64,000 nucleotides of DNA from Daucus carota subsp. sativus (Eukaryota; Streptophyta; Magnoliopsida; Apiales; Apiaceae). Positions 2,188-64,000 of this stretch are shown here, one piece after another. A program made the position numbers and the translations under genes. How positions within the stretch are numbered: the stretch's first letter is position 1; each line of letters opens with the position of its first letter. The notes under the pieces were generated by a model. It ran no database searches. It saw only the letters and a program-made list of their open reading frames with translations, and was not told where the DNA came from. The stretch lies in the NCBI RefSeq assembly GCF_001625215.2, contig NC_030389.2:40475454-40539453 (forward strand). Reading direction: 5' to 3'.

Positions 2188-5100
2188 CTAATGGGGCTCC
2201 AAGTTTATTAAAGAAAGAAGCTGCTCTAATTCTTCTGCTACTTGCTTTGCATCAGGTCTTGATTTGGTATCTACTGAGGTGCATCTAAGTGCGAGGGAAG
2301 AGGCTGTTGATGCTGCTCCTACAGTGTATTGGCCTTCCAAATGTGCATCCATTATATCCAAAATCCCATGCTCTTTGCTGAGCCGAGACTGAACCGAAGA
2401 AGCCAGGTTCACCTCATTGTCGGCTTTTCGTCCTGTCAAAAGTTCCAGGAGGACAACTCCAAAGCTGTAGACATCGCTTTTCAATGTTAATTCACCTTCA
2501 TAAGAATAGATTATCATGGGATTAGTAGATAATACAGAAGCAAGGAGTATGTGCCCTGCTTGATTAGAGATATTTGCAATCTACTTCCAGAAAAAATATA
2601 ACATGTACACAGCTAAACCCTTTAGACGTAAGGTTATGTGAAATATTAACCTGTATGATAATATTCGGGATCTATATAACCGAATGTTCCCTGAACACGT
2701 GTAGTAACATGGGATCTTTCCTCTTCTGGTCCGTCCTTAGCCAGACTAAAACCAGAGAGCTTTGCATTGTATTTCTGTCAGTAACAGAAATTTTGTCAGG
2801 CAAAAGTATATTTTTAGGGGGAACAATGGTCGGTAGTAAATTTTAACCATCATTGTTTCTACATACTGAATCAATCAATATGTTGGATGTTTTGACATCA
2901 CGATGTATAACATTTACTCCTGGACCATGAAGATATGCAAGCCCCTTAGCAGCTCCATGAGCAAGACCTATACGAAGTTTCCAGGAGAGCCGTTGAGAAG
3001 TAGAAACCCCTGTTTCAAGTGAATTAAGTAGCTGCGTCAAACAACAGTTTTTCACAGGCATAGCTTACAAAACCCAGGTTTTTCCCCTTCTTAAGATTTT
3101 TACAATTTTACGCGGAGCCCACCATCTAATAACTTATGACGAATATTATACGAGCGATGAAAAATTGAACTTAAGACGCATTCAAAAGCGACAGATATTT
3201 TCCGTCGTAATTGTGTCCATTTACGACAGATGCAGTGTTATAAGAGGATAATTGACTAGATCAGAGCTAATAATATTAAGAAACTCACGCAGATGCTGGT
3301 CCAAGCGTCCATGAAGTGGGTGCTCAAGTACTAGAAGCCGCTCCTTTTCCAAGCAATATCCAATCAGTTTTACGATATTAGGATGACAAAGTTTTCTTAA
3401 GGTATCGATTTCTTTCTGTAGTATAAGAGGTGACAGAGTTCTTTAGTAGCTTAAATAAAACACAACAAAAATTGTAAAACTAAAACAAAAAGATCACAGG
3501 GAAATGTATTGCAGGCAAAAGTTGAAAAGTGAGACTAACCAACCACACCTCCTTGAAATTTGGGTTATCTTTCAATCTCTTTATTGTAGTAATCGGACCA
3601 GTACCCTTATAATAAGTATAATAATCATCATTCCCCCACAGAGCACCGGGATCGAACTTGCTGGTAGCTGTCCTGAGATGATGGAATGTGTAACTCTTCA
3701 AATTTGATGGCTTCATGATGAGCTTTGAACAGGGCTGTTTGAGACTTTTTTTTTGAGGCCCTGTGCTAACTATAAGAATGAGGTCCTCCCAAATGACAAC
3801 ACAAAATTTTAATATATTTAAAATAATAAGATATCATCCATAAAATTATACTACTACAACTGAAAAATTGTTTGATTGCAACTACTACAAAAAACATCAA
3901 CTATTACTTGAACTTGTCACTTCTTCTAGCGTTTTTTGAAGTGAATTCATCCACCAAGTCTTCATAATCAATTGGTTGGAGGCTTTTAAAAAATAAAATT
4001 CAGATAATTTCTACACCCATTTGATGAACACCGGAGCTTGAAATCTTTGATGGAGTCTGGAGAAGAAATGGCATGACAGTGGAATGGACAAATGAGTCAC
4101 TAAAATATGTTTGCTCGTTAAAAGTTTTGTTTTTTTGGATAGTTAGACTTAAATATGTGTGTGGCCATGTGGGATTTAGCTTACACAGTGTACTAGTTTG
4201 TGGGGGTGGGGGGAGGAATAAGAAGAGACATGCATAGCTCGATCTTGAGAATTGATTAGTGTTTAAATAAAATAATGTTAACAATTAAAGAGATGTTAAT
4301 ATTATATTATATTTATCATGAGTATACTAAGAGATAGACAGAAGTAGTCATATAAAAACGGCCCTGGCTTTGAATCCCTGTTGACTGGCGTACTTGGCCA
4401 AACCTATTTTTAGCGTATTCGTGTAGCTTTTGTTAAAGAAACTATAGGTCAATTTATGATTTATAAATCTATATAGATGAAATTGAAGATCTTAATTTTT
4501 TTGTTACTTAATTTGGATTTACAAAACGTATTACAGTGAGATTACCTGATATGACCCGAGCTGCAAGTGTCAGCAAAGTAGCAAATCTTTGAAAAGAAGA
4601 AGACTGCTTCTCTTTCTCGGGGAAGAATGAAGAAGACTGCTTTTCCTGATGCCTACTGCTGGAAATACCATCCAGCTCATCATCGGAATTTTCATTCTCC
4701 ACCTCATGGTCTGATACATCTCCTTCCTCCACCTCAGAGTCTGATATATCTATTTCCTCTTGGTTCTCATCACTAGTTATCTTTTCAGTCCTCTTTTCTT
4801 GCAAGGCCAAGGCAGACTCAAGACCAACAACAACCTCAGCCATAGTGGGACGATGTTTAGGTTCGGTCTGTAAACACTGGATTGCAACTTTCACGAACAT
4901 CTCTAGAGAATCAGGATACACATTATCTTTTATTCCCTCATCAATAATTTCCCCCAGTCTTTTCTCTCTGAAGCAATATTGTGCCCATCTAGCTAAACCA
5001 ATTTGCTCTTCATCCAGACTCTTGTCCACTGCTGGCCTTCCACACAAGACCTCAAATAACACAACACCGAAGGCATACACGTCGGATTTCCTCGTGAGCC

Positions 5101-5869
5101 TTTGGGTTTGGAAATAATCAGGATCAAAATATCCAAAGGTTCCTTTCACCTGAGTGCTTACGAATGTATGCGTCTGATTAGCTGGACTTGTTCTAGATAA
5201 TCCGAAATCAGAAACCTTAGCTGCAAAATTCTGGTCAAGTAGGATGTTAGTGCTCTTTACATCACGGTGTATGATTCTCTGGTAAATCCCTGTTCCAGTG
5301 TGAAGGTAATCCAGTCCTCGAGCTGCTCCGATACAAATCTTGAGACGTTGAACCCATGAAAGAGGCGAAGAAGAAGTGTCATCTTGTCTAAGCCTCTTAT
5401 GAATATGATCGGCTAACGTACCACCTGCCATAAATTCATAAACAAGAATCATCTCATAACCTTCATTACAGTAACCAATTAAAGACACTAGATTGATGTG
5501 CCGAATTTTTGAGAGCATCTCAATCTCTGCACGGAATTCTGTGGATCCTTGTTTCGAAGTTGATTTCAACCGTTTTATGGCAACTAGAGTTGCTCCCAGA
5601 GTCCCTTTGTAAACATTTCCAAACCCGCCTTTTCCGATCACTAATTCGATGTGGAAGTTACGTGTCGCACGCTTCATCTCATTAAAGGAGAAACGGTAAC
5701 ATGATTGTCGAGTAGACGATGATTGAAGCCAGTTTTTTTGTTCCACGACTTCTGCTTCTTGAAGTTTTTGGAGCATGTAAACTACGATATTCAAGATGGT
5801 AATAAGAATAATTGCTAAATTTACAGTGATGTTTGTATATCCATATAGAAATACCAAATCTTGTGTCAT
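2188..5869 (-). CDS. TK1: CrRLK1L-type kinase fused to RLCK-VII-like pseudokinase
   Basis: Proposed exons: 5869-4546, 3769-3540, 3415-3289, 3009-2867, 2774-2651, 2495-2188. They sum to 2256 nt (751 aa plus stop) without an internal stop. The start [15 protein letters not shown] is chosen because the same start recurs in TK2, TK3 and three relics; an in-frame ATG at 5998 would add 43 residues. Residues about 14-33 form a membrane segment. KinA spans about 73-355: GKGGFG, VAIK (K99), HRDVKSTN (201-208), DFGLS (221-225), all intact and FERONIA-like ([20 protein letters not shown]). An acidic, Ser-rich linker follows to residue 441. The second domain has a ruined glycine loop ([12 protein letters not shown]), [13 protein letters not shown], and KLSGFSLAK in place of KLSDFGLAK, so the metal-binding Asp is lost. 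The 776-bp fusion intron (3770-4545) holds no recognisable gene. If the intron is retained, KinA alone ends at 4508. Confidence 0.76.
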
Positions 5870-9416: not shown

Positions 9417-9419
9417 TAA

Positions 9420-10284: not shown

Positions 10285-10292
10285 CCTGTATT

Positions 10293-14854: not shown

Positions 14855-17800
14855 ATGACACAAGATTTGGCATTTCTATATGGATATACAAACATCACTG
14901 TAAATTTAGCAATTATTCTTATTACCATCTTGAATATCGTGGTTTATATGCTCCAAAAACTTCAAGAAGCAGAAGTTGTGGAGCAAAATAATTGGCTTCA
15001 ATCATTGTCTACTCGACAATCATGTTACCGTTTCTCCTTCAATGAGATGAAGCGGGCAACATCTAACTTCCACGACGAATTAGTGATCGGAAAAGGCGGG
15101 TTTGGAAATGTTTACAAAGGGAGTCTTGCACCTGGAGCAACTGTAGTTGCCATAAAACGGTTGAAATCCATGTCAAATCAAGGATCCACAGAATTCCGTG
15201 CAGAGATTGAGATGCTCTCAAAAGTTCGGCACAGCCATCTAGTGTCTTTGATTGGTTACTGTGATGAAGGTTATGAGATGATTCTTGTTTATGAATTTAT
15301 GCCAGGTGGCACGTTGGCCGATCATATTCATAAGAGGCTTCGACAAGATGACACTTCTTCTCCACCTCTTTCATGGGTTCAACGTCTCAAGATATGCATC
15401 GGAGCAGCTCAAGGACTGGACTACCTTCACACTGGAACAGGCATCTACCAGAGAATCATACACCGGGATGTAAAGAGCACTAACATTCTACTTGACGATA
15501 ATTTTGCAGCTAAGGTTTCTGATTTCGGATTATCTAGAACAAGTCCAGCAAATCAGGCAGATACATTCGTAAGCACTCAGGTGAAAGGAAGCTTCGGATA
15601 TTTTGATCCTGATTATTTCCGAACTCAAAGGCTCACAAGGAAATCCGACGTGTATGCCTTCGGTGTTGTGTTATTTGAGGTCTTGTGTGGAAGGCCAGCA
15701 GTGGACAAGAGTCTGGATGAGCAGCAAATTGCTTTAGCTGGATGGGCACAACATTGCTTCAGAGAGAAACGCTTGGGGGAGATTATTGATCCGGGAATAA
15801 AAGCGAACGTGTATCCTGATTCTCTAGATATGTTTGTGAAAGTTGCAGTCCAGTGTTTACATACCGAACCTAAACAGCGTCCCACTATGGCTCAGGTTGT
15901 GGTTGGTCTTGAGTCTGCCTTGGCCTTGCAAGAAAAGAGCACAGAATATTGTTCTCCAGAGACAATTAGTGATGATAAACATGAGGTGGATAATGAAAAT
16001 TCTGAAAATGAGATGCGGGGTATATCTAGGGGTATATCCAGCAGTAGGCATCAACAAAAGTGGTCTTCTACTTTTAAAAGATTTTTTGCTCTACTCACAC
16101 CTGCAGCTCTGGCCAGATTAGGTAATCTTAAAATTAAGATTTTCTTTTAAGGAATCTTCCATTAATATTATAATTCCTACTAATCTTATAATTAGAAAAT
16201 TACTAATACATGGATATATTAATCTAGTTATCTATGTAATTTAAAAAACCAATAAAATGTATGAAGGTCTCACTGCTCGTAAAACAATCAAAATCTATTA
16301 TAATAAAATTAGTCATAAAAATCTTTTTCTTAACTTATCTAGAAAACTTATTCTCATTAAAAGATAGTGATTTAAATAAGTATAATTGTAACACCAAACT
16401 TCAAATATGGAATATAACAAGATATAAGCTAATCTATATTATAATTTATACATACACACACATAGACATACATACATACATACATACATATATGAATTAA
16501 TATTTTGTGTTTTGATTTATTCCTTATTTTTTGTTGTCAATTTTAATCATTAATCTTTTAACTTAAGTGCTATATTGTAACTATATATAGGCATTTTTTT
16601 GGGTTAAGTCTCATCTTTACTTTTGCAATATTAAATTTTTTTTAGCTCAAAATGATGAGAATTATAGAATGTAATACTAAAAAATATTATCCGAAATTGA
16701 ACACCGGAGAATGAAGTAAAATTTATAATATAAATTTGGGGTAATCAGATAAGATGTCTAAAATTTTTATTCCTTCAATCCAATCAATCCATTCCAAATT
16801 ATTTGAACAAGAAATCTAAATCATATATTTTTGAAGAAATGCTGATTCAACTTCTTCATCATGTTCTTCTACAATCTTCTTTATAAACAATTTAGATAGA
16901 CACTATTATCTCAAAATTTCTTACTTATCCAAAAAACTTTTTCATAATTTTTCATTTCATTCTCACTCATTCCATTACATCCAAATGAACCCAACCTTAA
17001 TGTCTAATGTTGTGTTTGGTTGGGGTGAATAAAAATGGAGGGAATGGAATGAGATATGAACTATAATTTAGTTGAATTTATAATAATTTCATTCCTTCCA
17101 CCATTCCATTCTTATCACCCTTGACTAGAGCTAATGCTCCATTCCTAATCATACATATTTTCTTATCAAATCTTATCATACAAAATTTGCATTCACTCAT
17201 ATTTTTTTCAAAGTCCTCCCTCTTACACTCTATTATTTTCTTTCATTTATACTCATTCCATTCCATTCACCCCAACCAAACACAACATAAGAGTTTAGAA
17301 GAATGATTTTGTTCTCCTTTTTCTCTTCATAATATTTCAACAAAATTTTTATATGATTTTCTCGTTGTTGGCAGTCCAAAGGTATTCAAAGTCAGTAAAG
17401 TCATCAAATATGAAGATGTACACATATAATGATCTCTGTATAGCTACCAGGAAGTTCCATGCCGATGCTGAGTTGTGGAAAGACGGTAATTGTACCATTT
17501 ATAAGGGTTACTTTGATGAGAAAACATACGCTGTTGCAAAATGGGGTACTGGTCTGGTTACTGCAATAAAGATGTTCAAAGATAGCGAAGCTGACATTCA
17601 GGGGTATTTGGTTAGTCTCACTTTTCAGCTTTTCCAGTACTTTTTCCTGTGACCTTTTAAGTTTTAGTTTTAGATTTTTTTGTTGTTTATAAGTTCTATT
17701 TAAGCTGACTAACAAACTCTGTCACCTCTTATGCTACAGACAGAATTCCTTACCTTACAAAAACTTTGTCATCCTAATATTGTTAAAGTGATTGGACTTT

Positions 17801-19079
17801 GCCTTGATAACAAGGAACCGTTTCTGGTACATGAGTACCCACCTCATGGACGCTTGCACTGGCATCTGTGTGAGTTTCTCAATATTATTAGCTCTGATCC
17901 AGTCAATTATATGCATCCAGAAATCATCTAAGTATGATGTGATGTTAAGTCGAATGAGTTATTGTCATAAATTTGCCTTAAAAAGTGGTTTTTGAATCAC
18001 GGCCTGATAGATAACTGCTATAGATATAGAATAAGATATATCAGGCGAACTGGTCTTGGCCTAAGAAGGTACAAAATTGTTCACATCTTAAAAAGGGACA
18101 AAGTTTCGTAATCTATGCCTTTGAAATAAACTGATTTTTGACGCAGTTACTTAATTCAGTTGAAACAGGGGATTCTGACTCTGAATCGCTCTCTTGGAAA
18201 CTTCGTATAAGTATTGCTCATGGAGCTGCTAAGGGGCTTGCATATCTTCACAGTCCAGAAGTAAATGTTATACATTGCGATGTCAGAACATCCAACATAT
18301 TGATTGATTCAGTATGTAGAAGCACTGATGGTTAAAATTTACTTCCCGACATTTTTCCCACTAAAAATATAGTTTTGCCTGACAAAATATCTGTTACCGA
18401 CAGAAATACAATTCAAAGCTCTCTGGTTTCTGTTGCTCTACGAACGGACCAGAAGATGAAAGATCCCATGTTACTACATTTGTTCGGGGAACAGATGGTT
18501 ATCTAGATCCCGCATATGTTAATACAGGTTAATATTTCACATAATCTTGTGTCTAAAGGTTTTAACATATTGTATATATGTTATTATATTTTTCCTGGAA
18601 GTTGATTGCAGTTTATGTGTGGCAAGTAGATTGCAAATATCTCTCTAATCAAGCAAGGAACGTACTCCTTGCTTCTGTATTATCTATGTGCTTACTTGGT
18701 CCCGTATATTTTCTATTCCTATGAAGGTCATTTAACAATGAAAAGCGATGTCTTCAGCTTTGGAGTTGTCCTCCTGGAACTTTTGACAGGACGAAGACCA
18801 GTTTTCGAGTTTGAAACAGAGAATACGAGCCTTGCTTATTGGGCTCAGTCTCGGCTCAGCAAAGAGCATGGGATTTTGGATATAATGGATGCACATTTGG
18901 AAGGCCAATACACTGTAGGAGCAGCATCAACAGCCTCTTCCCTCGCACTTAGATGCACCTCAGTAGATACCAAATCAAGACCTGATGCAAAGCAAGTAGC
19001 AGAAGAATTAGAGCAGCTTCTTTCTTTAATAAACCTAGAGGTCAACGAGAACGACTTAAGCAAGCCAACTGCACGGTGA
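14855..19079 (+). CDS. TK2: CrRLK1L-type kinase fused to RLCK-VII-like pseudokinase
   Basis: Proposed exons: 14855-16121, 17375-17610, 17740-17869, 18169-18311, 18404-18527, 18727-19079. They sum to 2253 nt (750 aa) with every junction in frame. The protein starts [20 protein letters not shown] (membrane segment). KinA is intact: [45 protein letters not shown]. The linker ends ALARL and joins to [20 protein letters not shown]. The second domain is heavily degenerate: DGNCTIYKG for the glycine loop, [13 protein letters not shown] in the catalytic loop, and KLSGFCCST where KLSDFGLAK is expected. The last exon, from [19 protein letters not shown] onward, matches TK1's exon almost exactly. The fusion intron (16122-17374) carries a Tourist-like MITE and a CATA microsatellite. 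Intron retention would stop KinA at 16150. Confidence 0.76.
16458..16496. repeat. CATA microsatellite in TK2 fusion intron
   Basis: Short tetranucleotide run (catacatacataca...) inside the intron. Confidence 0.8.
17008..17287. mobile_element. Tourist/PIF-like MITE in TK2 fusion intron
   Basis: 280 bp with inverted ends tgttgtgtttggttggggtg and caccccaaccaaacacaaca, flanked by TAA on each side (17005-17007, 17288-17290). Lies about 90 bp upstream of the RLCK exon's splice acceptor. TK1's corresponding intron lacks it. Confidence 0.85.
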
Positions 19080-25544: not shown

Positions 25545-26023
25545 TTCTGAAGTCACCAAATTTGAAGATTTTTCATTTAAAGATCTAAGTTTAGCTACCA
25601 AGAAGTTCCACAGAAAATATATGTTAGGGCAAGGTAGTTTTGGCTGTGTTTTTAAGGGTTGGGTTGATGAGACACGTTTGGGGAAGCTTCATATTTAATT
25701 CCCGGAACCTGTTAATCTCTGTAAAGAGATTAAATCAAGGGGTCCAAGGTTACGAGAAGTGGATGAAAGTACTACTTTACAAAACCTACTGTGTTTTATG
25801 CTGTTAATTTGAGTTTTATGTTTTACATTTCGCGTTTGATATTACAAGCTGGCTGAACAAGAACAACCCTTTGCACGTCTTGACTACAGGCAGAGATTAA
25901 TTTTCTGGGGAGATTTTCTCATCCGAATCTTCTAAAATTGATCGGATACTGCTTAGAAAAGGAGCATCTACTTCTAGTATATGAGTTTATCTCTCAGGGC
26001 AGCTTGGAAAAGCATATATTCGA
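25545..26023 (+). pseudogene. RLCK-VII N-lobe relic
   Basis: 25555-25660 reads FEDFSFKDLSLATKKFHRKY, then [19 protein letters not shown]: this relic keeps a canonical glycine loop, unlike the TK second domains. Frameshifts and stops follow (25695-25750) before ISVKRLNQGVQGYEKW. The second exon (about 25889-26023) is open: [20 protein letters not shown], then [15 protein letters not shown], with the family's phase-1 donor 'gagagtgag'. No further exons. It preserves a less degenerate version of the RLCK module. Confidence 0.78.
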
Positions 26024-30307: not shown

Positions 30308-30362
30308 GTTTACTACAACCAAAAGGCTTGTTGTGTTATGCTTTCAACTAAAACTTGGCCCT

Positions 30363-42400: not shown

Positions 42401-42919
42401 AATTTTAGCTCCCAAAGTATCATCCAGTAGAATGTTGTTAGTCTTGACATCTCTATGTATAATTCTGTTCCCAATGCTTGTACCACTGTGAAGGTAGTCT
42501 AGTCCATGTGCTGCCCCAATGCAAATCTTGATCCGCTGCATCCATGATAGAGGACGTAAAGAGGTATCACCTTTTCTCGATCTTTTATGCAGATGATCAG
42601 CAAGGCTTCCATGAGACATAAGATCATAGACCAGGATCATCTCCTCACATTCATCACAATAGCCAATGAAAGACACTATGTTGCTGTTTTGGAACTGGGA
42701 AAGCACCTCAATCTCTGTGCGGAACTCCTTAATTCCTTGATTGGACCCTGATTTCAACCGCTTTATTGCAACTTGTCTGTTGCCAAAGTATCTGAGTCCT
42801 TTGTAAACCTTCCCAAATCCGCCTTTTCCAATCACTAGTTTCTCATCAAAGTTGTTTGTTGCCGACTGCATGACTCTAAGTCGAAAACGCCTACATTTTT
42901 CTGGTACAGACATCGGCAA
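39420..42919 (-). CDS. TK4: CrRLK1L-type kinase fused to RLCK-VII/CRK chimeric pseudokinase
   Basis: Proposed exons: 42919-41758, 41389-41145, 40991-40859, 40273-40048, 39961-39817, 39725-39420. They sum to 2217 nt (738 aa), in frame throughout. Start [18 protein letters not shown]: a membrane-segment frame lies just upstream (42933-43166) but is out of frame. KinA is intact ([34 protein letters not shown]). The linker ends ARAFS and joins to [20 protein letters not shown]. The second domain takes its N-lobe from an RLCK-VII ([28 protein letters not shown]) and its C-lobe from a DUF26/CRK-type kinase ([42 protein letters not shown]). The catalytic loop is HRNLNSSN: Asp to Asn and Lys to Asn. 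DFG is DFR. Introns before the C-lobe (585 bp) and at the fusion (368 bp) hold nothing recognised. Confidence 0.74.
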
Positions 42920-44760: not shown

Positions 44761-45059
44761 TAAAATATGGAGTAGCATAAAAAGGTTCCAAATGAGCACG
44801 ATTGGATAGCCTGGATTTATCCTTTGTTGTTCCGGGACATCCGGGTATATGCCTGCACTGTCAAACAAAAAAAAAAACAAAAAAAAGTTTCCAAATGGTA
44901 GACACTACATTAACAAGAACAGAGTATCTCCTCTGTTATTTTCTTCCCTATTAAAGTTATTTAAAGCCCATGCAGCAGAATGCTTTCAGAGACGTCAGAG
45001 TCTAGACTCTAGAGGTCTTCACTCTGTATATTTCATAAGTTTTACAAATCTTGAAGCTG

Positions 45060-45938
45060 CTCAAGTTCCTTCACCACCTGGTTTGCATCAGGTCTTTATT
45101 TGGGATCCACAGAGAGGCATTTCAGCGCGAGGGAAGAAGCTCGTAGTGCTGCTGTGATCGTATACTGGCCTCGGATATCTGCATCCATGACATCCAAATC
45201 GTCGGTTCTCTGGTAGGACAAGACTTAGCCCAAGAAACAAGACCCTCTTCCCTTGCACAGAGCAACTCAAATACACTTTGTCCTGTTAAAATTTCTCTCA
45301 GAACAACTCCAAAGCCGTAGACATCACTTTTCATTGTTATACGACCTTCATCACAACAAATCTTTTGGGATTAATAAAGGCATACAATGAGATTGGTAAA
45401 AACATGATACAGTTGTTAGCCTTAAACCATAAAGGGGTTTCAATATTGACGCTGAATGATACTGTAGATTTAGGATTAAGCCGTTCAGTGCTTTTTTTTA
45501 CTGAATATATGCTGTTAACATACGTATGACCGGGACCCTGACCCTATATGCATTATGTGGAACCCCATAAGATTATATGGAAAAATAACCTGTAGCCACA
45601 TATTCTGGAGCTATGCAACACACTGTTCCATTCATCTCTGTGGAAACGTGAGTCCTATCATGTTCTGGTCCTTTTTTTGCCAATCCGAACCCAGAGAGCT
45701 TCGCATTGCAATTCTGCCAATCAATATCAAAAATAAAATTTTAATGGGAAAACTAACTCAGAATAAATGTGAACGACTGAATTGTTCCACCTACTGAATC
45801 AATCAATATATTGGCCGTTTTATAATCACGATGAATCACATTTGCTTCTGGACTGTGAAGATATGCAAGTCCCTTTGCTGCATCAAGAGCAATCCTCATG
45901 CGAAGTTTCCAAGATAGCGGTTGAAAGTAGGAATCCCC
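45060..45938 (-). pseudogene. RLCK-VII C-lobe relic (exons 3-5)
   Basis: Exon 3 (to about 45938) reads [20 protein letters not shown], then [13 protein letters not shown]. Exon 4 (about 45590-45715) reads NAKLSGFGLAKKGPEHDRTH and ends at a donor. Exon 5 (to about 45060) starts GRITMKSDVYGFGVVLREIL, then has a 1-base frameshift near 45210 and a stop inside the PDP-K-RPDANQ segment. It also carries the SGFG (Asp to Gly) change seen in TK1-TK3. It lies downstream of TK5's CRK-type C-lobe exons, as expected if those exons were inserted between RLCK exons 2 and 3. Confidence 0.8.
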
Positions 45939-46139
45939 TGTTTAAATAATCAAGTAGATATGTCACTTTGTAGTTTCTGACCATCACAGATTCTGTAATA
46001 CCACATCAATTTGAATATTAGCTATACATTGATTATATTGAATAATTTGATCTTGCCAAACAGATATTCAAAAATTGTCTTGTCAAAACCCTAGGGCACT
46101 TTCAGAGTTAACAGAGACATATTGCTATTTGCTCCTTTA

Positions 46140-46480
46140 TTCTGGGATCAATTATCTGACCGATATTCCTTCTTTGTAGCAGTGTTGCGCCCATCCAGCT
46201 AATCCCATTTTGTACTAGTGCCTGTCCACTGCTGGCCTTCCACAAAAAACCTCAAGCTGCAGCACACCAAAGGAATACACGTCAGATCTCCACGTCAGTC
46301 TATGAGTTAAAAAATAATATAGATCAAAATAACCAAAGGTACCTTTGACATGATTGCTGACAAATGTAGTTGCCTGATTTACTGGACTTGTTTTAGATAA
46401 TCCAAAATCCGAAATTTGAGCTTGCAGATTATATCATCCAGTAAAATATTTGTGGTCTTTACATCACGATGTATAAAAAA
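46140..46480 (-). pseudogene. KinA C-lobe fragment
   Basis: Minus strand gives [13 protein letters not shown], a small indel, then [37 protein letters not shown] and AGWAQHCYKEGI with stops. Wording is closest to TK3's KinA. It lies between TK5's last exon and the RLCK relic, so it was part of the rearrangement there. Confidence 0.78.
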
Positions 46481-46606: not shown

Positions 46607-49600
46607 CTACCTAGGAGCGAGTACACTACTTGTTGACAAAGAATTCTGAGAAATGTTATCTAGGTCTAAGTTCATGTTAAAATTGTTCTCGTATAGGTCA
46701 AGACTGGGATCCTTTGGCTGAGGCAGTTCAATATCACTAGTGAGCATCAAAACCACCATGGACATGGTCGGCCTGTCTTCTGGACGTGGTTGCACACACA
46801 ATAGCCCAATCTTAATTGCTCGAATCAGTTGAGATTGATCATATGATCCCATGCCTATCTCAGCCAATGCTTCAAAATGTTTTCCTTCTCGATGGACACG
46901 CCACACCTATAATCAGATAATATAACCGTGACTTGTATTATATAAAAAAGAAAAATTTACACATTCCATGAACTCCAAACTAAAACTGGGTGCTTACATA
47001 ACTGAGAATGAAAAGGTTGTGGCCATAAAAATCTTTCGTTTTCATTCCACATATTATCTCTAGCACTATTACACCGAAGCTGTAGACATCAGATTTTTCT
47101 GACACTATCCCGTTTACATACTCTGGAGACATGTAGGCCCTGCAGCAAACCCATGAAAATTGTTAACAAAAATTTATAACCATTGGTGGGAGAAAATATT
47201 AAAGAAGTTTAATTGAAATAATTACGGATATCCATAGACACGACTTGTGCTTAATATACATTCACTTTCCCCAAAAACCCTGGCTAATCCGAAGTCTGAA
47301 ATTTTTGGATTCATCTCAGAGTCAAGTAGAATATTTCCGGGGTTCAGATTTCTATTGATGACTCTCGGTCTAGAGCTCTTATGAAAATAGAGGATTCCTC
47401 TAGCTATACCATTTATGATGTTGCAGCGCATTGGCCAATCCATTGATCCCCGTCCTCTTTCTTCGTCTGTTCCAAATCCAATGTCAATTAAATATACATA
47501 AGAAGTCATGGTTGTTTCAAATTACATCCGAAAAAGTTAACATCAGTATCATATATATCCACAGAAAAAAGAGAGGCGTTATTAACACCTCGAAAATGAA
47601 CCTACCTAAAAGCAGATAATTAATCTAAACTGTAGTTGGGCAGATTTATGCGTGAGAAGGATTGTTATCAATGCTGTTGCTTGGGTATTCTCATCATTAC
47701 GCTCACTAAACATCAATCCTGATTCTTCATGTATACATTGCTTTACTAGGCTACTAATTAATTATCAAAACAATTCATTTTAGCAATGTTTGTTTAATTT
47801 GCCACGTGTTTTAATCAATATGCTTAGTGTTTTAAACACATCTGTTATATAAACGAATACAACGTTTATGTTGTTGGAATCGCCTAGCTTCTAGGGATTA
47901 AGACAATAATAACTTTATGCATAACATATGCTCCTTTAGAGCCTATGGTTGTCCGTCCTTTCCCTATGTTACTTTTTTACTCTTAGTGTTACTATTACAG
48001 TATTTCTTTGACTACTTTCAGCGCTACTGCTTTTGTTATATCAAATCGGGTCTCTGCAGAAACAAATCGAGGTAAGGGTTTCATCAATCTTAATCTCCTC
48101 AGACCCTACTAGGCACCGAGCACCGGGTATGTTTGCTTTCATTAGGTTTCATACCATATATGAATAATTGCGCTACCCTACCTTATGACATACCATATAT
48201 TTATGGCTTATTAACATTTTGGCCATAAAATATTCACTTTTAGCTACATGAATCCAAAAAGAGAACAGAAAATGTGGGATTTAAACCCTGAAGTTTGAGA
48301 TTCCTACATTTTGAACTTTATATGTATTTTTGCTTCTGAAAATACCATTCCTCGAATTCAGAAATAGTCAGTGAAGAAGGGCACTTTTCATGAGAATGTT
48401 ATAAATAGGTTCGAAGTGCACAAATGCCAACCTTTCAGATAACAATGTATATTATTTTGTTTGGGGGGTTTATGTGACAAGTGTACATAAAATAATACAA
48501 TGATGGCTTATATGTAAAAACCCTGGTTCACAGTATACCTTAAACTTTGACATGTACGTGATTGTCCTCAGGTAGGCAATAATTTACAGGACTATAGGTC
48601 TAGAAAAAGATTGGGAAACTCACTGTTCAAATGCTTTTGCAAGTTGCCCTGAGGCATGAATTCATATACTAGAAGTTGATCATCCTCTTTAAAGCTGTAC
48701 CCGAGCAATCTCACAACATTAGGATGACAGAGATTCCCCAGAGAGTTGATTTCTGCCTGCAGTCAAAGAGGTGGCAAAGAGTTAGTCAGCTAGCTTACTC
48801 TAATTTTGAACAAAAACTTATTTTTTAAACTGAGTAATCCTCAGATATTAAAATAAAATAAATCTTAGCGGAAAAACAATTTAAATTTTAGAAAAGATTA
48901 ATGCTTAGTTGCTTACCAACCACCGCCGGAAACTAGTGGAATGTAATTTCTTTACTGCAATGACAAGGCCAGTACCCTGTTTTACAGCAGCAAATGTGTT
49001 CTCATCAACCCAGCCCTTAAAAACTTCACCATAATCACCATTACCAATCATACTGTCAGGATGAAAATTCCTAGTAGCTACACGAAGCTCATCAAATGAG
49101 AAATTCTTTAACTTTGATGGTTGCAGAACTTTAATGATGGGACTCTTTCTATTGCCTGGAAGAGGGAAATCAAATAAACTCTTGAATTTGTATTGTCTGA
49201 AAGAGGTCACATCAAATCAATATTTTATTGTAAATGCTTATCGAAATTCATATACTCAAGCCTTGTTTTAAAGGCTGTTACATCTGACTTGGGAAATATG
49301 TTTCTAGTCTTCCATTGTTCCAGGTAGATCATAGTTTTCACCAATGATGTGCTGGTTTAAGGAGGTATATCTACGACATAATACCAATATATATGCACAA
49401 GCCATCTTCTATTACATATATAAATTCCATAGAACTAAAAGAGGAATTTATTTTTACCTGAGAACGCCCGAGCTCTGACTGAAAGAAGGCCAATTATCCT
49501 TTTCCCGAATGTCATCCCAACAGAAGACGGCTTTTTGCGATGGCAACCATTAGACAATATAGTCCTTTCTGAATATTCATATTCTACCCTGTGGTTAGCA

Positions 49601-50601
49601 TCGTTCCCCTCATGTATCAAATAATCTACGTCTTTGGTATGATCAATAGGCAATATATCGACTAAAGGATAATATGCACTTTTTTTTTGCAATGTCAAAG
49701 CTAATTCAAGACCCGCCAGAACATCAGCCATAGTAGGACGGAGCTTCGGCTGGAAATTCAAACACATGATAGCAACGTCCACGTATGCTTTTAAGGAATT
49801 AAAGGATATGTTCCCCTTGATTCTGTGATCAGCTAGCTTGTCCAGGATCCCCTCTTTGAAGCAGTGTTGTGCCCAATTAGCTAGATTCATTTGCTCTTCA
49901 TCTAGACTCGTATCCACTACTGGTCTTCCACACAAGACCTCAAATAACACAACACCAAATGCGTAGACATCAGATTTTGTAGATAATGTGTGAGTCGAAA
50001 CATAGTATGGATCTAGATAACCATGTGTGCCTTTGACATGAGCGCTTACATATGTTGACGTCTGATTTGCTGGACCTATTTTCGACAGTCCAAAGTCTGA
50101 AATTTTAGCTCCCAAAGTGTCATCCAGTAGAATGTTGTTACTCTTGACATCTCTATGTATAACTCTGTTCCCAATGCTTGTACCACTGTGAAGGTAGTCT
50201 AGTCCATGTGCTGCCCCAATGCAAATCTTGATCCGCTGCATCCATGATAGAGGACGTAACGAGGTATCACCTTTTCTAGATCTTTTATGCAGATGATCAG
50301 CAAGGCTTCCATGAGACATAAGTTCATAGACTAGGATCATCTCCTCACATTCATCGCAATAGCCAATGAAAGGCACTATGTTGCAGTTTTGGAACTGGGA
50401 AAGTATCTCAATCTCTGTGCGAAACTCCTTGATTCCTTGATTGGACCCTGATTTCAACCGCTTTATAGCAACTTTTCTGTTGCCAAAGTATCTGAGTCCT
50501 TTGTAAACCTTCCCAAAGCCGCCTTTTCCAATCACTAGTTTCTCATCAAAGTTGTTTGTTGCTGACTGCATGACTCTAAGTCGAAAACGCCTACATTCCA
50601 T
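46607..50601 (-). CDS. TK5: CrRLK1L-type kinase fused to RLCK-VII/CRK chimeric pseudokinase
   Basis: Proposed exons: 50601-49458, 49155-48917, 48756-48624, 47466-47226, 47139-46998, 46906-46607. They sum to 2199 nt (732 aa), in frame throughout. Very close to TK4 across all exons, so a recent tandem duplicate. Start [18 protein letters not shown]: upstream membrane-segment sequence survives but has a stop and a deletion, so the product should be soluble. KinA intact ([26 protein letters not shown]). The second domain begins [20 protein letters not shown] with no Met in that exon. It keeps [12 protein letters not shown] and VIAVKKL, then a CRK-type C-lobe with NRNLNPGN in place of HRDLKxSN but a normal DFGLAR. 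The tail ends STSSVLAPR. The 1157-bp intron between lobes carries about 570 bp absent from TK4. Confidence 0.75.
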
Positions 50602-51109: not shown

Positions 51110-51530
51110 TCTCTATGTCATCCAGCAGAATGGTGTTAGTCTTGTCTTGACCTCTCTATGTATAACTTTGTTCCCAACACTTCGTGCTGCCCCAATGCAG
51201 ATCTTGATGCGTTGCGCCCATGAAAAAGGATCTAGATCTTTTATGTAGATGATCTGCAAGGTTTCCACGAAACATAAGATCATAAACTAGGATCATCTCC
51301 TCACATTCATCGCAATAGCCACTGAAATAAACTAAAATTCTGTGTTGGAACAGGGAAAGTAGAACTCCTTGATTCCTTTGGACCCTGATTTCAACCGCTT
51401 TATAGCAACCTTTCTCTGCCCAAAGTCTAGGATCCCTTTGTAACTCTTCCAAAGTAAGCGACTGGTGACACTTGCAGTTTGGTTTCTTGTAATACTTGCT
51501 GTTTCTGGAGCTTATTAGGCAAGAAATTCA
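51110..51530 (-). pseudogene. KinA N-lobe relic
   Basis: Scattered pieces in changing frames: YKAVEIRVQ corresponds to a frameshifted AIKRLKS region, then [20 protein letters not shown] and [11 protein letters not shown], then TKCWEQSYT. Several deletions. Closest in wording to TK4/TK5. Confidence 0.8.
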
Positions 51531-54083: not shown

Positions 54084-57000
54084 CTATCTAGGAGTTAATA
54101 AACTGGTTGTTGGTGAAGATATTTCAGAATATTTATGGATCGATGGTGAAGATATTTGGGAATCGAGTTCTTCCCTAAAATAGGCCGGCCGTTTTGGCTG
54201 AGGCAGTTCAATACCACCACTCAGCATCGAAATTACCATGGCCATGCTTGGTCTGTCTTTTGGATATTCTTGCACACACAATAATCCAACTTGAATTGCT
54301 CGAGACAGTTCAGACTGATTACATGATCCTATGGTTGCCTCATCAAACAGTTCCAAACATCTTTCTTTGAGATAGAGTCCCCATGCCTACATGTCAATAT
54401 TACAAGTATGATCACAGATTTTGGAACAATGAGTTTATACAAATTGAATATATTCTTGACAAAATCTGGACACTTACATGACCAGCAAGGAAGTCGGGAT
54501 CTAATTGTCTGAAACTTGTATTTTCTCTTCCACTTACTATCTCCAGAACTAATACCCCAAAACTATAAACATCAGATTTGACCGAAAATTTCCCATGAAT
54601 TAAATACTCGGGAGACATGTAGCCGCTGCATGAAACCCAATAGAAATTGTTAGCCAAGTCATAATAGTGGTAGGAGTGAGTTAGAAAATTCGGTTTACGT
54701 AATTACTATGTGCCAACTACGCGCATCGTGCTCATTTCACTTTCACTTTCCCCCAAAATCTTAGCCCCTCCAAAGTATGAAATTCTTGGATTCATCTCAT
54801 GGTCAAGTAGTATGTTACTAGCATTAAGATTTCTATGCATGACTGTTGGTTTTGAATCCCGGTGAAGATAGAGAATTCCTCTAGCTATACCATCTATGAT
54901 GTTGTAGCGTGTTGGCCAATCTAATAGCCGTCCTCCTTTCACTGTTCCAAACGCCAAGTCTGTCAATTATCATGGTGTATTGAGCAATAACAATTTTACT
55001 AAATTATATTTGAGAAAGGTAGCATGTTCATCGAAATATTAAAAAAAGAAATTAGGCATCAACAGCTCGGAATGATCCTACCAAAAAGCAGCAAATTTGA
55101 ACTGTCGGAATGTACAGATGTACTTATGTATCCAAATGGCATCATAGTTTTGTAGTTTAAGATTAACTACTCATCAAAGGATTCCCATAAAAGGTGATGC
55201 TTAGCCTTTGCAGCATTGGCAGTACTATATGCGTCAAAAGCCAAATAACTCCCAATTAATAATACTCCCTCCATCCCCTGAGTTGTATGCGCAAGGGAGC
55301 GGAATCGTTGGCACGAAAAATAAAGCAGCTGACCTAGTAGCATGGGCTGCAACAAGGACTCGGTGCTTCTCTAAAGTATAGTACTATAACTTATTTCTAA
55401 ATATATTTTTTCTGAATAAAAATTTAACTATTAAATTTTTATTCAGAAAAACAAAATTTTAAAATAAGTTATAGAACTATATTCTATAAAAGCATTAAAT
55501 TGCATGTCAAATAGTGAATGTATAGAATTAAATGGGACGGAGGGAATTCTAGCTTATAACGGAAGGAGTATTTTTATTTTTGAAATTTGACTTTACACAT
55601 ATGTACAGGATCACTTTAAAAGATAATTTATAATTATAATATTTTATTATTATATTAATGATTTTTATACCCAATAAGTTGTAAACGCCAAAAAATTATC
55701 CACACATATAAAATTTACTTCTTACATGTACTTAACTTCTCATTTATAAATAATAAATATTGTTTTTAAGTTAAGCCAAACATCCTAGAATCCCTTTTCA
55801 ACAAAATAAGCAGCTAAATCTCAATTCAGTTGGATCCAGGCAAATATGGATTAATATATATTCCCTTTGTCCCCTACAAATGTTTATATTTGGTTGGGCA
55901 CATAAGTTAAGAAAATATGTAAAGTAAGAGTGAAAAGTAAGAAAAATGAGGATAGTGGTTGGACTATAGATATTTAATGTATAAATTAAAGTATATTGGA
56001 AGAATAATGGTGGTAGTTGATTTTTATATTATTAATTTTTACTTAAATTTGAAACATAAAAAATTGGATGAAACATCTTAAAAAACGTAAGAGGAAAGTA
56101 TACAGAAGAGTTGGAACAGATTACAACCTAAATTCTAACAAAAAATAAACATGGACGATCATGGCAGCAGAGTTAGTATAACTTGAGTTTGCTAAATAGA
56201 TCCAAATTGGAGTTTGTTTCTTTTTTTTTTTTTTTGTCAGGAGATCCAAATTGGAGTTTTGGAAAACAAAAATGTATAGAAAATAATGGGATTATAGCTA
56301 ACAAGATTGAGAACTCACTCTTGATTAGATGATCTTTTAAGCTGGTTTGCTGCAGATAATCGTATACTAGAAATCGATTTTCCTCTTCCAGGCAGTACCC
56401 AATCAATCTCACAACATTAGGATGACAAAGATTCCCCAGATAATTGATTTCTGCCTGTACTTAAAAGAGGTGGCAGACAGTTAATTAGGCAAGTTTACTT
56501 GAAATTTGAACAAAAGAAATCAAATTTAAAACTAATCCAAAATTTGTTAAACAAAACTAAACGTAACCGGTAAAGATTTCAGAAATTCTTGATACTAACC
56601 AACCAATCGCCGCGACCTTCATGTACCAATCTCTTTACAGCAATAAACTGTCCAGTGCCCCACTTTGCAGCAGCAAATGTATTCGCATCAACCCAGCCCA
56701 TAAAAACAACACCATAAGCATCTTGCTTTACCACACTGTCAGGATGGAAATTTCTAGTAGCCACACTAAGATCATTGAATGTAAAGCTCTTCAAGTTTGA
56801 TGAGTGCAGAACCTTTTCCTGGTCCAAAGGTTCTTGTCTGACCAATGGAGTTACCGGTAAGAAGCTTGCACGATTGTCGGCCTTCAATTTCTTACTCTTA
56901 ACTGACAGATCAGCATAACAATTAGCAAAAAAACAGTACACATCACTGAATCTTAATTAAAATTTTAGTAAATGCTAAAAGTACTGTTTTTGCAGACTGC

Positions 57001-58693
57001 AGTCTTAACTTGGAATCTCTTGCATGAGAACAAAAAGAAAGTGGTTTCTGATTTAAAATTCCGTAATATAATTATAATGCAAAAAGATCATATTTTTTAC
57101 CCTCAACGTGTTAATTTTAGGAAATCTGTCAATGGCATAATACAAATATGCGCATACACCATCATATTTGACAAATAGAAAAAGCCAGTTCGTTTCAGTT
57201 CATGATCAGAATTCTATGATTTTTCATAGTTAAGACATTAATAAAGACTCTAATTGGAAGATAGCTTCACAGGTAAATGATTTAAACTACAACTATTGCT
57301 TCTTCCAGGTGACTTTGTGTACATACATGAACAGATTAGGTTTACCTGAGAAAGCCCAAGCTTTAACTGAAAGAAGGCCACTTATCCTTTTTCTGAAAGT
57401 CATCCCAACAGAAGACTGCTTTTTGTGATGCCAACCATTAGAAACGTTTATAATTCCTTCCCCCGTATGTTCACATTCTTGGCTGTGATTATTATCTTTA
57501 GCCTCAGGTATCGAACAATCTACAATTTCAGTACAATGAATAGGCATAATCTCACATTCTTGGCTGTGATTATTATCTTTAGCCTCAGGTATTGAACAAT
57601 CTACAATTTCAGTACAATGAATAGGCATCATCTCGACTAAAGGATATTGTGTACTCTTTCTTTGCAATGTCAATGCAGATTCTAGACCAACCACAACCTC
57701 AGCCATTGTAGGACGGTGCTTGGGTTGATAATACAAACACTTGATAGCAGTGTCCATATACACATGTAAGGCGTCAGAGGAAATGACCCCCTTGATATTC
57801 GGATCAGTTATCTGGTCAAGGAGTCCCTCTTTGAAGCAGTGCTGTGCCCATCCAACTATATTAATTTGCTCATCATCCAGGCTTCTATCCACTGCTCGTC
57901 TTCCACACAAGACCTCCAATAAGACGACACCAAATGCATAGACATCAGATTTCCTGGTCAATCTGTGAGTTGAGATATAATATGGATCAAGATAACCCGG
58001 AGTGCCTTTGACACGGGTGCTCACATGTGTACATGTCTGATTTGCTGGACCTGTTTTGGACAGTCCAAAGTCTGAAATTCTAGCTTCCAAATTCTCATCC
58101 AGCAGAATGTTTGTAGTCTTGACATCTCTGTGTATAACTCTACTCTTAATGCTTGTGCCAGTGTGAAGGTAATCAAGTCCATGTGCAGCACCAACACAAA
58201 TCTTGAGGCGCTGCACCCATGATAAAGGAGGTAAAGACATATCGCCTTTGTTTACCCGTTTATGCAGATGATCAGCAAGGTTTCCAGAAGGCATATATTC
58301 ATAAACTAGGATCATTTCCTCACTCTCGTCACAATAACCAATGAGAGGGACTAAATGGCTGTGTCGAAACTGTGAAAGCATTTCAATCTCTGTCTGAAAT
58401 TCCTTTCTTCCTTGCGTAGACGTGGATTTCAACCGCTTTATAGCAACAATCCTCTGTCCAAGGTCTATGATCCCTTTGTAAACCATTCCAAACCCGCCTT
58501 TTCCGATCACCAGTTCCTGTTGAAAGTTGTCTGTTGCCAACTGGATCTCTTGAAGTGAAAAACGACGACATAACTGTCGTACAGACAAAGGCAAGCGATC
58601 GGTTTGCTGTGCTTCTTTGAGTTTCTGGAGCTTATAAACCAAGATATTCAGTAGAGTTATGAGAATCACCACGCTACTTGAGTTGTCTGTCAT
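54084..58693 (-). CDS. TK6: CrRLK1L-type kinase fused to RLCK-VII/CRK chimeric pseudokinase
   Basis: Proposed exons: 58693-57346, 56901-56600, 56454-56319, 54941-54707, 54625-54478, 54386-54084. They sum to 2472 nt (823 aa), in frame throughout. Start [20 protein letters not shown] gives a short membrane segment directly at the N-terminus. KinA is intact ([44 protein letters not shown]). The linker contains a perfect 27-residue duplication and ends KAWAFS, joining to [20 protein letters not shown], an exon with no Met. The second domain has [12 protein letters not shown] and FIAVKRL (RLCK N-lobe), then [28 protein letters not shown] (HRD lost), SYFGGAK (DFG lost), and the perfectly restored GTYGYMSPEY across an intron. 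The C-terminus ends [11 protein letters not shown]. The 1377-bp intron between lobes contains a Stowaway MITE. Confidence 0.78.
55265..55568. mobile_element. Stowaway-like MITE in the TK6 inter-lobe intron
   Basis: Begins ctccctccatcccctgagtt after TA (55263-55264) and ends in ggaaggag before TA (55569-55570). A second terminus-like 'gggacggaggga' lies 22 bp inside. Related to 26468-26718. Confidence 0.75.
57471..57632 (-). repeat. 81-bp tandem duplication in the TK6 linker
   Basis: Two copies (57471-57551, 57552-57632) differing at only a position or two. Each encodes 27 residues beginning [18 protein letters not shown] and continuing KDNNHSQEC. In-frame and recent; it lengthens the acidic linker between the two kinase domains. 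Confidence 0.93.
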
Positions 58694-62189: not shown

Positions 62190-64000
62190 ATGACGGACAG
62201 GTCAAATGGGGTGGTAATCCTTATCACTCTGTTGAATATCTTGGTTTATAAGCTCCGGAAGCTCGAAGAAGCACAGCAAACTAAACTCCAAGAACTGCAA
62301 ACCAAACTCCATGAAGCGCAAACCAAGCTCCAAGAAGTGCAGGAAACTAAAATCAAAGAACTGCAAACCAAACTCCAAGAAGTGGAAACTAAACTCCAAG
62401 AAGCCGAGGAAGCCAAACTCCGGGAACTGCAAACCAAACTCCAAGAAGCGCAAACCAAACTCCTAGAAGCGGACGAAACCAAGTTCCAAGAAGCAAAGCA
62501 ATCCATTCGTTTACCTTTGTCTGTAAGACAATTATGTCGGCGTTTTACCCTTAAAGAAATCCAATGGGCAACAAATAACTTCCAGGAAGAGTTTGTGATT
62601 GGGAGAGGTGGGTTTGGACTGGTTTATAAAGGTATCATCGACTATAAACAGGGGACTGTTGCTATAAAGCGGTTAAAGTTACTGTCTAAGCAAGGAAGCA
62701 AGGAATTTCAAACAGAAATTGAGATGCTTTCCAAGTTTCAACACAGCCATTTAGTCTCCCTTATTGGTTATTGCGATGATTATGAGGAGATGATCCTAGT
62801 TTATGATTATATGTCTCGGGGAACCCTTGCTGATCACTTGCATAAAAAGGTTAAAAAAGGTGACAGTTGTTTGCCGTCTCTAACATGGATTCAGCGCCTC
62901 AAGATTTGCATCGGAGCAGCACATGGACTAGACTACCTTCACACTGGTACAAGCACTGAGAACAGAGTTATACACAGAGATGTCAAGAGTACAAACATTT
63001 TGCTGGATGAGAATTTTGCAGCTAAACTTTCGGACTTCGGATTGTCCAAAATAGGTCCAGCTAATCAGACATGTACATATGTAAGTACTCGCGTCAAGGG
63101 CACACCTGGTTATCTTGACCCATATTATGTCGCAACTCATAGATTAACCAGGAAAACCGATGTCTATGCCTTTGGTGTAGTGTTATTTGAGGTTTTGTGT
63201 GGAAGACCAGCATTGGATATGAGTCGGAATGAAGACCAAATGAACTTAGCTGGATGGGTACAACATTGCTTACAAGAGGGATTCTTGGACAAGATAATTG
63301 ATCCCAGGCTCAAGTGGGAGATATCCTCTGATTCCTTGAATACTTTTGTGGACATTGCTGTCAAGTGTTTACATTATCAACCCAAGCACCGTCCTACTAT
63401 CGCCGAGGTTGTTGTGAGCCTTGAGTCTGCATTGAGATGCCAAGTAAAGAGTGCAGATTATTCGTTGTTTGAGATAATGCCGATTGATTATCCTCAAGAA
63501 GAAGCAGATTGTTCAGTGCCCGAGGTGAAAAATACTGACCATGACAAAGGATATGCGTTAACAGGAATAGGGACTGTAAATGATCCAAGTGCTGGGCATC
63601 GCAATAAGCAGAAATTGACATTTTCAGAAAGGGTCAGTGGTATTTTTTCACGTACAGCTCAGGGGTTGTCAGGTAAAACTAAACTCTTGAAATGTCAATA
63701 TGTGCATACAACTTATCTTAATAACATATATTGACACTGCAAAAGTAAAGATTACTCGTCATTCATTAATTGAGATTGTACCAAAGAAGTTTTACACTGT
63801 TCAATACTTGAAGGGCAAGTCTTTAAGTACAACTGCATATAAATTTGCAGGGGAAGGGATTGCAAATTTGTCCAATGTTTCACATCGCAAAAAGAAGATA
63901 ACACTGACAAAAAGAATTGGTGGTCTTCTTTCAGTTACAGCTCGGGTGTTTTCAGGTAAACCTAAACTTCAGCATCAATATGTATGCACCTGGAAAAATT
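62190..64000 (+). CDS. TK7 (partial): coiled-coil CrRLK1L-type kinase, tandem-kinase family
   Basis: Exon 1 is 62190-63672 and exon 2 is 63851-63955; both end at phase-1 donors, and the gene runs off the window. Start [20 protein letters not shown] is chosen over an in-frame ATG at 62157 because TK6 begins the same way. A membrane segment is followed by about 80 residues of heptad repeats (TKLQELQ, TKLHEAQ, TKLQEVE and similar), a strong coiled coil absent from the other genes. KinA is intact ([44 protein letters not shown]). The linker tail ends TAQGLS. Exon 2 (GEGIANLSNVSHRKKK... to TARVFS) is a second copy of the linker tail, 105 nt and symmetric phase 1-1, so it can be included or skipped without changing frame. 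The second kinase domain should lie beyond 64000. Confidence 0.8.
62256..62500 (+). repeat. In-frame 21-bp repeat array encoding TK7's coiled coil
   Basis: Variants of 'aaccaaactccaagaagcgc' recur roughly every 21 bp, encoding one heptad each, with 'aggaaactaaaatcaaagaa'-like units interspersed. Expansion appears to be by DNA-level duplication. Antisense frames here are shadows. Confidence 0.88.

Follow-up and report, generated by a model that had tools for sequence, protein, structure and literature searches.

The DNA analysed here is a 64,000-nucleotide stretch of the 441-Mb carrot genome (C9:40475454-40539453, hereafter the window), which carries a cluster of seven tandem kinase (TK) genes, TK1 to TK7, in which a FERONIA-like kinase exon of CrRLK1L type (K1) is followed by the exons of a second kinase (K2) related to the RLCK-VII family. 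A preliminary description, made from the nucleotide letters, had claimed seven such FERONIA-like exons, each ending at a phase-1 donor, with a frame-restoring RLCK exon on the same strand behind six of them. All seven K1 kinases, each encoded by a single exon, were recovered at those places by Pfam (PK_Tyr_Ser-Thr, 153-167 bits, one stretch each). We rebuilt every gene model by hand splicing, the hand models replacing the automatic ones for the window genes only, and the N-terminal membrane helix was assigned from hydropathy together with homology to a receptor segment. The genes comprise the following features.

4546..5869, reverse strand: TK1 exon 1, N-terminal hydrophobic (transmembrane, TM) segment, CrRLK1L-type K1 and linker; open frame, donor CAG/GTAATC
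2188..3769, reverse strand: TK1 K2, RLCK-VII of PBL9/10/11 type, DFG lost; exons 3769-3540, 3415-3289, 3009-2867, 2774-2651, 2495-2188
14855..16121, forward strand: TK2 exon 1, TM segment, K1 and linker
17375..19079, forward strand: TK2 K2, predicted RLCK-VII pseudokinase (HCD, SGF); exons 17375-17610, 17740-17869, 18169-18311, 18404-18527, 18727-19079
36617..37877, reverse strand: TK3 exon 1, TM segment, K1 and linker
34072..35787, reverse strand: TK3 K2, predicted RLCK-VII pseudokinase (HGD, SGF); exons 35787-35561, 35416-35278, 35053-34911, 34812-34686, 34412-34072
41758..42913, reverse strand: TK4 exon 1, K1 and linker; hydrophobic segment not found in the exon
39420..41389, reverse strand: TK4 K2, putative hybrid; RLCK-VII N-lobe 41389-41145, 40991-40859; SD-1-type C-lobe 40273-40048, 39961-39817, 39725-39420; phases 1,0,1,2,0
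49458..50601, reverse strand: TK5 exon 1, K1 and linker; hydrophobic segment not found in the exon
46607..49155, reverse strand: TK5 K2, putative hybrid; N-lobe 49155-48917, 48756-48624; C-lobe 47466-47226, 47139-46998, 46906-46607
57346..58693, reverse strand: TK6 exon 1, TM segment, K1 and linker
54084..56901, reverse strand: TK6 K2, putative hybrid; N-lobe 56901-56600, 56454-56319; C-lobe 54941-54707, 54625-54478, 54386-54084
62190..63672, forward strand: TK7 exon 1, TM segment, LQEAQTK-type repeat, K1 and linker
64440 to ~66404, counted in window numbering and lying beyond the window: TK7 K2, motifs intact

Spliced by hand, TK1 to TK6 are single open frames of 2256, 2253, 2238, 2211, 2199 and 2472 nt with a stop at the end, and in all six two adjacent kinase domains lie within one open reading frame. 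Five of these exon sums are identical to those reported earlier; the sixth, that of TK4, had been given as 2217. The linker introns of the six genes are of the GT-AG class, span 302-1253 bp and are all in phase 1. For TK7, the phase-1 donor at 63672 joins in frame an acceptor at 64440, beyond the window, and the 3' end of its K2 was not followed to a stop; in the hand models all seven K1 exons are therefore joinable in frame to a K2 at a phase-1 intron, as the preliminary description had held for the donors. The translations also bear out its remark that in TK3, TK5 and TK6 no ATG precedes the kinase homology of the first RLCK exon, and a scan of the six linker introns for ATG frames starting MG with a Cys in the first eight residues found none. 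The in-frame K1-K2 tandem kinase family is confirmed, and a clustered family with a CrRLK1L-type first and an RLCK-VII-type second kinase is supported in carrot. Exon 1 of TK7 also contains a repeated LQEAQTKLQE-type stretch (62250-62540), probably a coiled coil, between the TM segment and K1, which was not observed in the other window copies.

Predicted fusions corresponding to five of the seven window genes exist in the databases, those for TK6 and TK7 via another carrot contig. TK1 agrees with P0040 at 99.6% identity over 751 aligned positions with 3 gap positions, and a further TK1 record, P0052, has the linker spliced differently from P0040. TK5 matches the NCBI model P0045 at 100% over 728 residues, and TK4 is identical to the NCBI model P0043 over residues 1-635, with a different end thereafter. 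TK6 gives a gap-free 823-residue match to P0016 (97.8%), with 3 differences in 305 K1 residues and 12 in 339 K2 residues. TK7 shows 1 difference from P0005 in 842 aligned residues, none of it in K1 or K2, and 35 residues are inserted in P0005 at the junction. The end of the K1 linker (..LSVTARVFSGKPKL) recurs in the linker intron of TK7, at 63690-63999, which looks like a duplication of the 3' end of exon 1; since the extra residues fall exactly at the junction, P0005 may use part of this second copy.

The arrangement extends well beyond the window. In a module-peptide scan of DNA fetched from C9, C1, C4, C6 and C8, in which short K1 fragments were not counted, all 23 near-full-length K1 exons have a same-strand RLCK-type K2 behind them; so do two more K1 loci, on C2 and C3, for a total of 25 of 25 on seven contigs. 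Two loci, L040 and L041, are counted in this census of 25 and are absent from the trees and motif tables described below. Four of five FERONIA-like control kinases have no RLCK exon in the ~4 kb behind them; the fifth, with a diverged kinase another 1.2-2.1 kb downstream, is not a clean control. On these counts chance neighbourhood, which the preliminary description had judged very unlikely, is rejected.

It could still be supposed that the K1 and RLCK modules are ordinary separate genes and that the in-frame junctions are products of chance or of annotation. The fusions are known here from DNA and predicted models alone, the junction differs among database models (P0052 against P0040 for TK1, P0005 against the hand model of TK7), a Heracleum model, P0333, splits the modules, and the automatic models, whose aligner is guided by the query model, place the K1 donor in phase 1 in 15 of 23 cases, TK1, TK3 and TK7 being among the exceptions. 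This account is nevertheless very improbable: order and strand are kept in all 25 copies, the seven hand-checked junctions are all in phase 1, the six linker introns offer no MGxC-type start frame, and the split model P0333 itself opens with apparent K1-linker sequence. P0333 was accordingly rejected as a stand-alone relative and reads as a mis-split fusion. That the locus encodes K1-K2 tandem kinases, as predicted from the DNA, is very probable, and this architecture is common to the two functional interpretations weighed below.

The exon structure of K2 points to the origin of the junction. A carrot stand-alone gene of PBL9/10/11 type, L038 on C2, starts with an exon of 52 nt that encodes MGSCLSVRIKAETPFHA, and its introns are in phases 1,0,1,0,1; a second stand-alone gene, L039, has the same phases apart from a 4-nt exon placed by the aligner. 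TK1 to TK3 and TK7 share the phases of L038, which suggests that the K1 exon occupies, in phase, the place of the MGxC anchor exon, and the N-terminal MGxC acylation exon of RLCK-VII was not found in TK1 to TK6, whose linker introns were scanned. These four genes have PBL9/10/11-group kinase sequence as well as the exon phases of RLCK-VII, and in TK4 to TK6 the resemblance is confined to the N-lobe. The intron phases of TK4 to TK6 are 1,0,1,2,0, and the last three exons of TK6 are 64-69% identical to a C2 gene, with phases 1,2,0 in both; an open frame upstream of this C2 relative carries B_lectin, S_locus_glycop and PAN_2. On the exon match, the phases and the lectin-type frame, the K2 of TK4 to TK6 is best read as a hybrid in which the third intron, of phase 1, marks the join between an RLCK-VII N-lobe and a C-lobe from a receptor kinase of the SD-1 (G-type lectin S-domain) class, a reading drawn from one stand-alone relative. 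The CRK (DUF26) module proposed earlier for this part was set aside as the donor, the C-lobe looking SD-1 instead: B_lectin, S-locus and PAN_2 are the domains of the single stand-alone relative inspected. An AlphaFold2 model of the TK6 relative P0016 (45 sequences) predicts kinase folds for both domains, with 10-residue means of the predicted local distance difference test mostly >80 (64-97 in K2); it also shows residues 6-31 as a helix and the linker as disordered. At a predicted template modelling score of 0.47, contacts between K1 and K2 are not readable from the model.

To place the carrot genes among their relatives, we searched with a carrot fusion from C6, scored the 8000 candidates that shared the most words with it and inspected the best 120. 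All 120 contain at least two kinase stretches, and in 93 a CrRLK1L-type kinase is directly followed by one of RLCK-VII type. The family, described at first as one in carrot, is present there and is not peculiar to it, since these 93 hits share its kinase order, often behind a malectin ectodomain. The malectin-like domain PF12819 occurs in 30 of the best 120 hits, which by their names we take to belong to Ericales, Cornales, Solanales and Lamiales, and in none of the Apiaceae, Asteraceae, Lonicera or Escallonia proteins among them; Escallonia and Lonicera are placed in the campanulids. P0037 (Actinidia) and P0093 (Solanum) show the order malectin, TM, kinase, kinase, and the carrot proteins start at the segment homologous to the receptor membrane helix (GVVVLLTVVNIIVYKL in P0037, with a counterpart in P0001). 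Of the two features of a CrRLK1L receptor, the carrot genes thus have the kinase and lack the malectin-like ectodomain, their open frames beginning at the TM segment. The carrot genome has 104 PF12819 matches, and none was seen by eye near the tandem loci, the nearest lying ~32 kb off on C8. The simplest reading is that the ectodomain was lost in the campanulids. Escallonia P0064 was considered as an independent capture of that plant's own PBL10 and rejected as a clean case, having a broken N-lobe and no TM segment.

Phylogenetic trees were built with 57 of the best 120 hits, hand-picked for taxonomic spread. K1 sequences of 78 tandem proteins split from FERONIA and Pto with support of 100; these two were the only outgroups, ordinary asterid CrRLK1Ls being left out, and a closer single-kinase relative is possible. 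Apart from exceptions such as P0111 and P0104, the K1 tree agrees broadly with the order of the hosts. For K2, 61 of 106 rows were hand-picked for a careful tree, and 59 were retained after cleaning (42 fused, 17 stand-alone). The K2 of C9_40442175, a short model, was dropped before the counts, and P0007, P0021 and later P0038 and P0012 were dropped for long branches or suspected merging of models. In the 59-row tree the fused K2s form three separate RLCK-VII groups: an older type of 27 rows (100/99), 14 Apiaceae rows adjoining the Apiaceae PBL9/10/11 kinases (100/97), and Actinidia P0037 beside PBL34/35 (100/99 in the 61-row tree). The tree was midpoint-rooted for drawing, and which K2 type is oldest is our inference. 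A further K2 type is a seven-row CrRLK1L-like group from Actinidia, Cornus, Phlomoides and Buddleja.

Approximately unbiased (AU) tests rejected a single origin of the fused K2s (p=4.25e-6, 59-row set) and also a single clade of the Apiaceae K1s that carry the older K2 type (p=0.0029), both p-values being weakened by the fact that the groups were defined with knowledge of an earlier tree. An earlier AU test with P0333 treated as stand-alone and P0064 included gave p=4.5e-47 and is superseded by the cleaned test. The rejection of the Apiaceae clade suggests that K2 types also moved between K1 lineages within Apiaceae. Mapped on the K1 tree, K2 type changes 11 times over 76 rows, or 9 times with the hybrids counted as PBL9/10/11 type. 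Individual pairs show the same pattern, the Actinidia receptors P0037 and P0063 having 93% identity in K1 and 54% in K2, and carrot C9_40427378 and C9_40434214, ~7 kb apart, 80% and 43%. It is well supported that K1 behaves as one lineage and K2 does not, as are the architecture itself and the exchange of K2.

The two kinases also differ in their catalytic motifs and in constraint. All 23 carrot K1s retain Lys, alpha-C Glu, HRD and DFG; in six C4/C8 copies the glycine loop is altered. Catalytic residues are lost in all six window K2s of TK1 to TK6 (TK1 SGF; TK2 HCD, SGF; TK3 HGD, SGF; TK4 HRN, DFR; TK5 NRN; TK6 HRN, YFG). The kinase-pseudokinase pairing claimed in the preliminary description is thus indicated by motifs for TK1 to TK6 and does not hold for TK7, whose K2 motifs are intact. 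In four window pairs the ratio of nonsynonymous to synonymous rates (omega) was 0.32, 0.18, 0.36 and 0.17 for K1 and 1.57, 0.81, 0.53 and 0.51 for K2, the K2 value being significantly <1 for TK5/TK6 and TK2/TK3; across ten pairs of automatic models K1 gave 0.12-0.37 and K2 0.36-1.60. These values indicate that K2 is constrained, less so than K1, and possibly diversifying in one pair.

Remnants of the same modules lie between the intact genes.

45045..46474, reverse strand: degenerate remains of a tandem kinase between TK5 and TK4, with K1 pieces ahead of RLCK exons 4, 5 and 6
25555..26033, forward strand: isolated fragments of RLCK exons 2 and 3, no K1 present
51143..51362, reverse strand: K1 fragments upstream of TK5

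Other broken K1 or RLCK exon pieces occur between intact genes at 19307-19396 and 43614-43700, and together such pieces suggest gene birth and death in the cluster. To the left of the window, at C9:40425381-40443077, are three more tandem copies, one of which (C9_40434214) carries a K2 of the older type; in the automatic models the K1 exon of two of these copies is interrupted by a stop codon. An extensin-like open frame (Pfam Extensin_2, 6 stretches) lies at 29396-30343, between TK2 and TK3. Elsewhere in the genome, L029 (C3:46512400-46517400) pairs a FERONIA-like kinase with a diverged one behind it and may correspond to P0082 (DCAR_0312521), a three-kinase protein of another multi-kinase type. 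Outside carrot, seven Asteraceae proteins of ~1250 residues (P0027, P0042, P0051, P0081, P0110, P0116, P0117) show four successive CrRLK1L-like kinase matches. A PADLOC scan returned kinase matches that are uninformative here.

Broken pieces between the genes, a stop in 3 of 23 automatic models and the high omega of K2 would also suit a decaying cluster, its genes on the way to becoming pseudogenes and K2 no more than a vestigial tail. We regard this as improbable, in that the K2 frames of TK1 to TK6 are intact, the K2 omega of two pairs is significantly below 1 as given above, and the frames of TK6 and TK7 persist in another carrot record.

A stronger alternative is a hard-wired relay, in which a receptor kinase has been fused to its downstream RLCK-VII substrate; K1 would phosphorylate K2, which would relay the signal or act as an allosteric partner or scaffold, and the exchange of K2 would rewire outputs rather than supply baits. 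FERONIA acts on RLCK-VII kinases such as RIPK, which counts in favour of a relay, as do the two-kinase malectin receptors outside the campanulids (the PF12819 carriers above), the intact K2 motifs of many malectin-type receptors and of four of the 22 tabulated carrot copies, and the activation-loop THVST/SHVST often retained in K2. The repeated loss of catalytic residues from K2 with K1 kept, and the faster evolution of K2 in clustered copies, are harder to accommodate, and no malectin match near the carrot tandem loci means that there is no obvious ligand input. On balance a relay seems rather unlikely.

The reading we prefer, to which we give a probability of roughly 0.45, is a membrane-anchored tandem kinase whose K2 would serve as an exchangeable bait mimicking RLCK-VII immune kinases. 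Several observations weigh against it. The fusions of other species are known from predicted models, among which that of Escallonia P0064 looks poor, and TK2 and TK3 have no near-identical fusion model among the 360 fetched proteins (best 74% and 58%). Lys, Glu, HRD and DFG are all kept in the K2 of TK7 and of three copies on C1 (in the doubtful model of a further K2, C1_34732651, the alpha-C Glu is the one residue missing), and with the many intact malectin-type proteins these indicate that K2 is not always a dead bait. Omega exceeds 1 in just one of the four pairs (the K2 of TK1/TK2, with dN>dS in 98.2% of bootstraps, uncorrected), and the K2 of the remaining three fits relaxed purifying selection.

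Under the bait reading, each TK gene would yield one protein comprising an N-terminal membrane helix (not found in exon 1 of TK4 and TK5), K1, a disordered linker and K2. The same order of parts occurs in an asterid receptor type made up of malectin ectodomain, TM segment, CrRLK1L kinase and RLCK-VII kinase, whose ectodomain the carrot members lack. In Apiaceae the older K2 would have been replaced in most copies by a PBL9/10/11-type RLCK-VII, the K1 exon taking the place of the latter's first (MGxC anchor) exon at a phase-1 intron; the C-lobe of K2 in TK4 to TK6 would in turn have been replaced by an SD-1-type receptor-kinase C-lobe at another phase-1 intron. K2 would resemble the RLCK-VII immune kinases that are targets of pathogen attack; interference with it would shift K1, which is conserved and presumably active, into another state at the membrane, and a defence output would then start from K1, perhaps via a helper nucleotide-binding leucine-rich repeat protein (NLR) as reported for wheat tandem kinases. 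More tentatively, and with some doubt, the family may be the receptor-kinase counterpart of the NLR integrated decoys, a fixed asterid CrRLK1L-type chassis onto which immune-type kinases were repeatedly spliced as bait and then freed from catalytic constraint. The donors would be several RLCK-VII subfamilies, CrRLK1L copies and half an SD-1 receptor kinase, exchanged at phase-1 introns, first in full malectin receptors and later in ectodomain-less clustered genes.

Most of what is known of tandem kinases, an emerging class of immune receptors, comes from cereals. A large asterid family in which one kinase stays constant and the other is exchanged would be a natural experiment on which kinase senses and which signals. 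It would also offer many ready-made K2 modules for effector screening, and it directs attention to candidate resistance genes in carrot, celery, sunflower and lettuce. The carrot genes resemble known tandem kinase proteins (Rpg1, WTK1/Yr15, Sr60, Sr62, Rwt4, WTK7-TM/Pm36, Pm57) in having two kinases per predicted protein, often a kinase with a pseudokinase, and in joining two families. They differ in having a CrRLK1L-type first kinase with an RLCK-VII or RLCK-VII/SD-1 hybrid second kinase, an N-terminal hydrophobic helix in most copies, and a K2 repeatedly replaced on one K1 lineage; the cloned examples confer resistance, whereas the carrot genes are known from sequence alone. In the passages drawn on here, the wheat tandem kinases Sr62 and RWT4 are described as using helper NLRs. 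A survey of 92 tandem kinase proteins (Klymiuk et al. 2018) sorts them into families with 40 fusions in 10 combinations, which in the passages drawn on are mostly from monocots, and the term CrRLK1L does not occur in its main text (PMC6170490). Kinase fusion proteins are called specifically found in cereals in a passage of a 2026 paper (PMC12830362).

The nearest precedent is in sunflower, where CrRLK1L-1 dual-kinase genes at OrDeb2 and OrAnom1 are broomrape-resistance candidates in the portions of the papers used here (PMC8866362, PMC10884359). According to the same portions, these genes combine a CrRLK1L-1 kinase with a second kinase, are clustered and ectodomain-less and have been likened to tandem kinases, and part of one matches an RLCK-VIIa-2 gene (PMC8866362, PMC10884359). 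They differ from the carrot genes in that the 2021 paper, in those portions, gives both halves as CrRLK1L-like with no TM segment, and in that the portions used do not mention exchange of K2. In our literature search, which covered titles, the starts of abstracts and passages of some papers, neither K2 exchange nor two-kinase malectin receptors were found described. The preliminary description knew of no report of this composition, which has partial precedent in database models of the same genes and in the sunflower dual kinases.

Compared with CrRLK1L receptors, the FERONIA kinase is the best solved relative of K1 (E 2.5e-100; 52% identity in the Foldseek match of P0016), and the carrot copies differ from these receptors in having no malectin-like match nearby and a second kinase. 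Compared with RLCK-VII kinases (PBL9/10/11, BIK1, PBL34/35), the K2s of TK1 to TK3 and TK7 share the exon phases of the carrot stand-alone gene L038 and nest with Apiaceae PBL9/10/11, and they differ in that the MGxC anchor exon is replaced by the K1 exon and that catalytic residues are lost in TK1 to TK3. NLR integrated decoys couple a conserved signalling chassis with an exchangeable target-like domain. The bait idea is summarised in a passage of PMC12835825. In the carrot genes the chassis is a kinase, not an NLR, and the exchangeable K2 is a putative bait.

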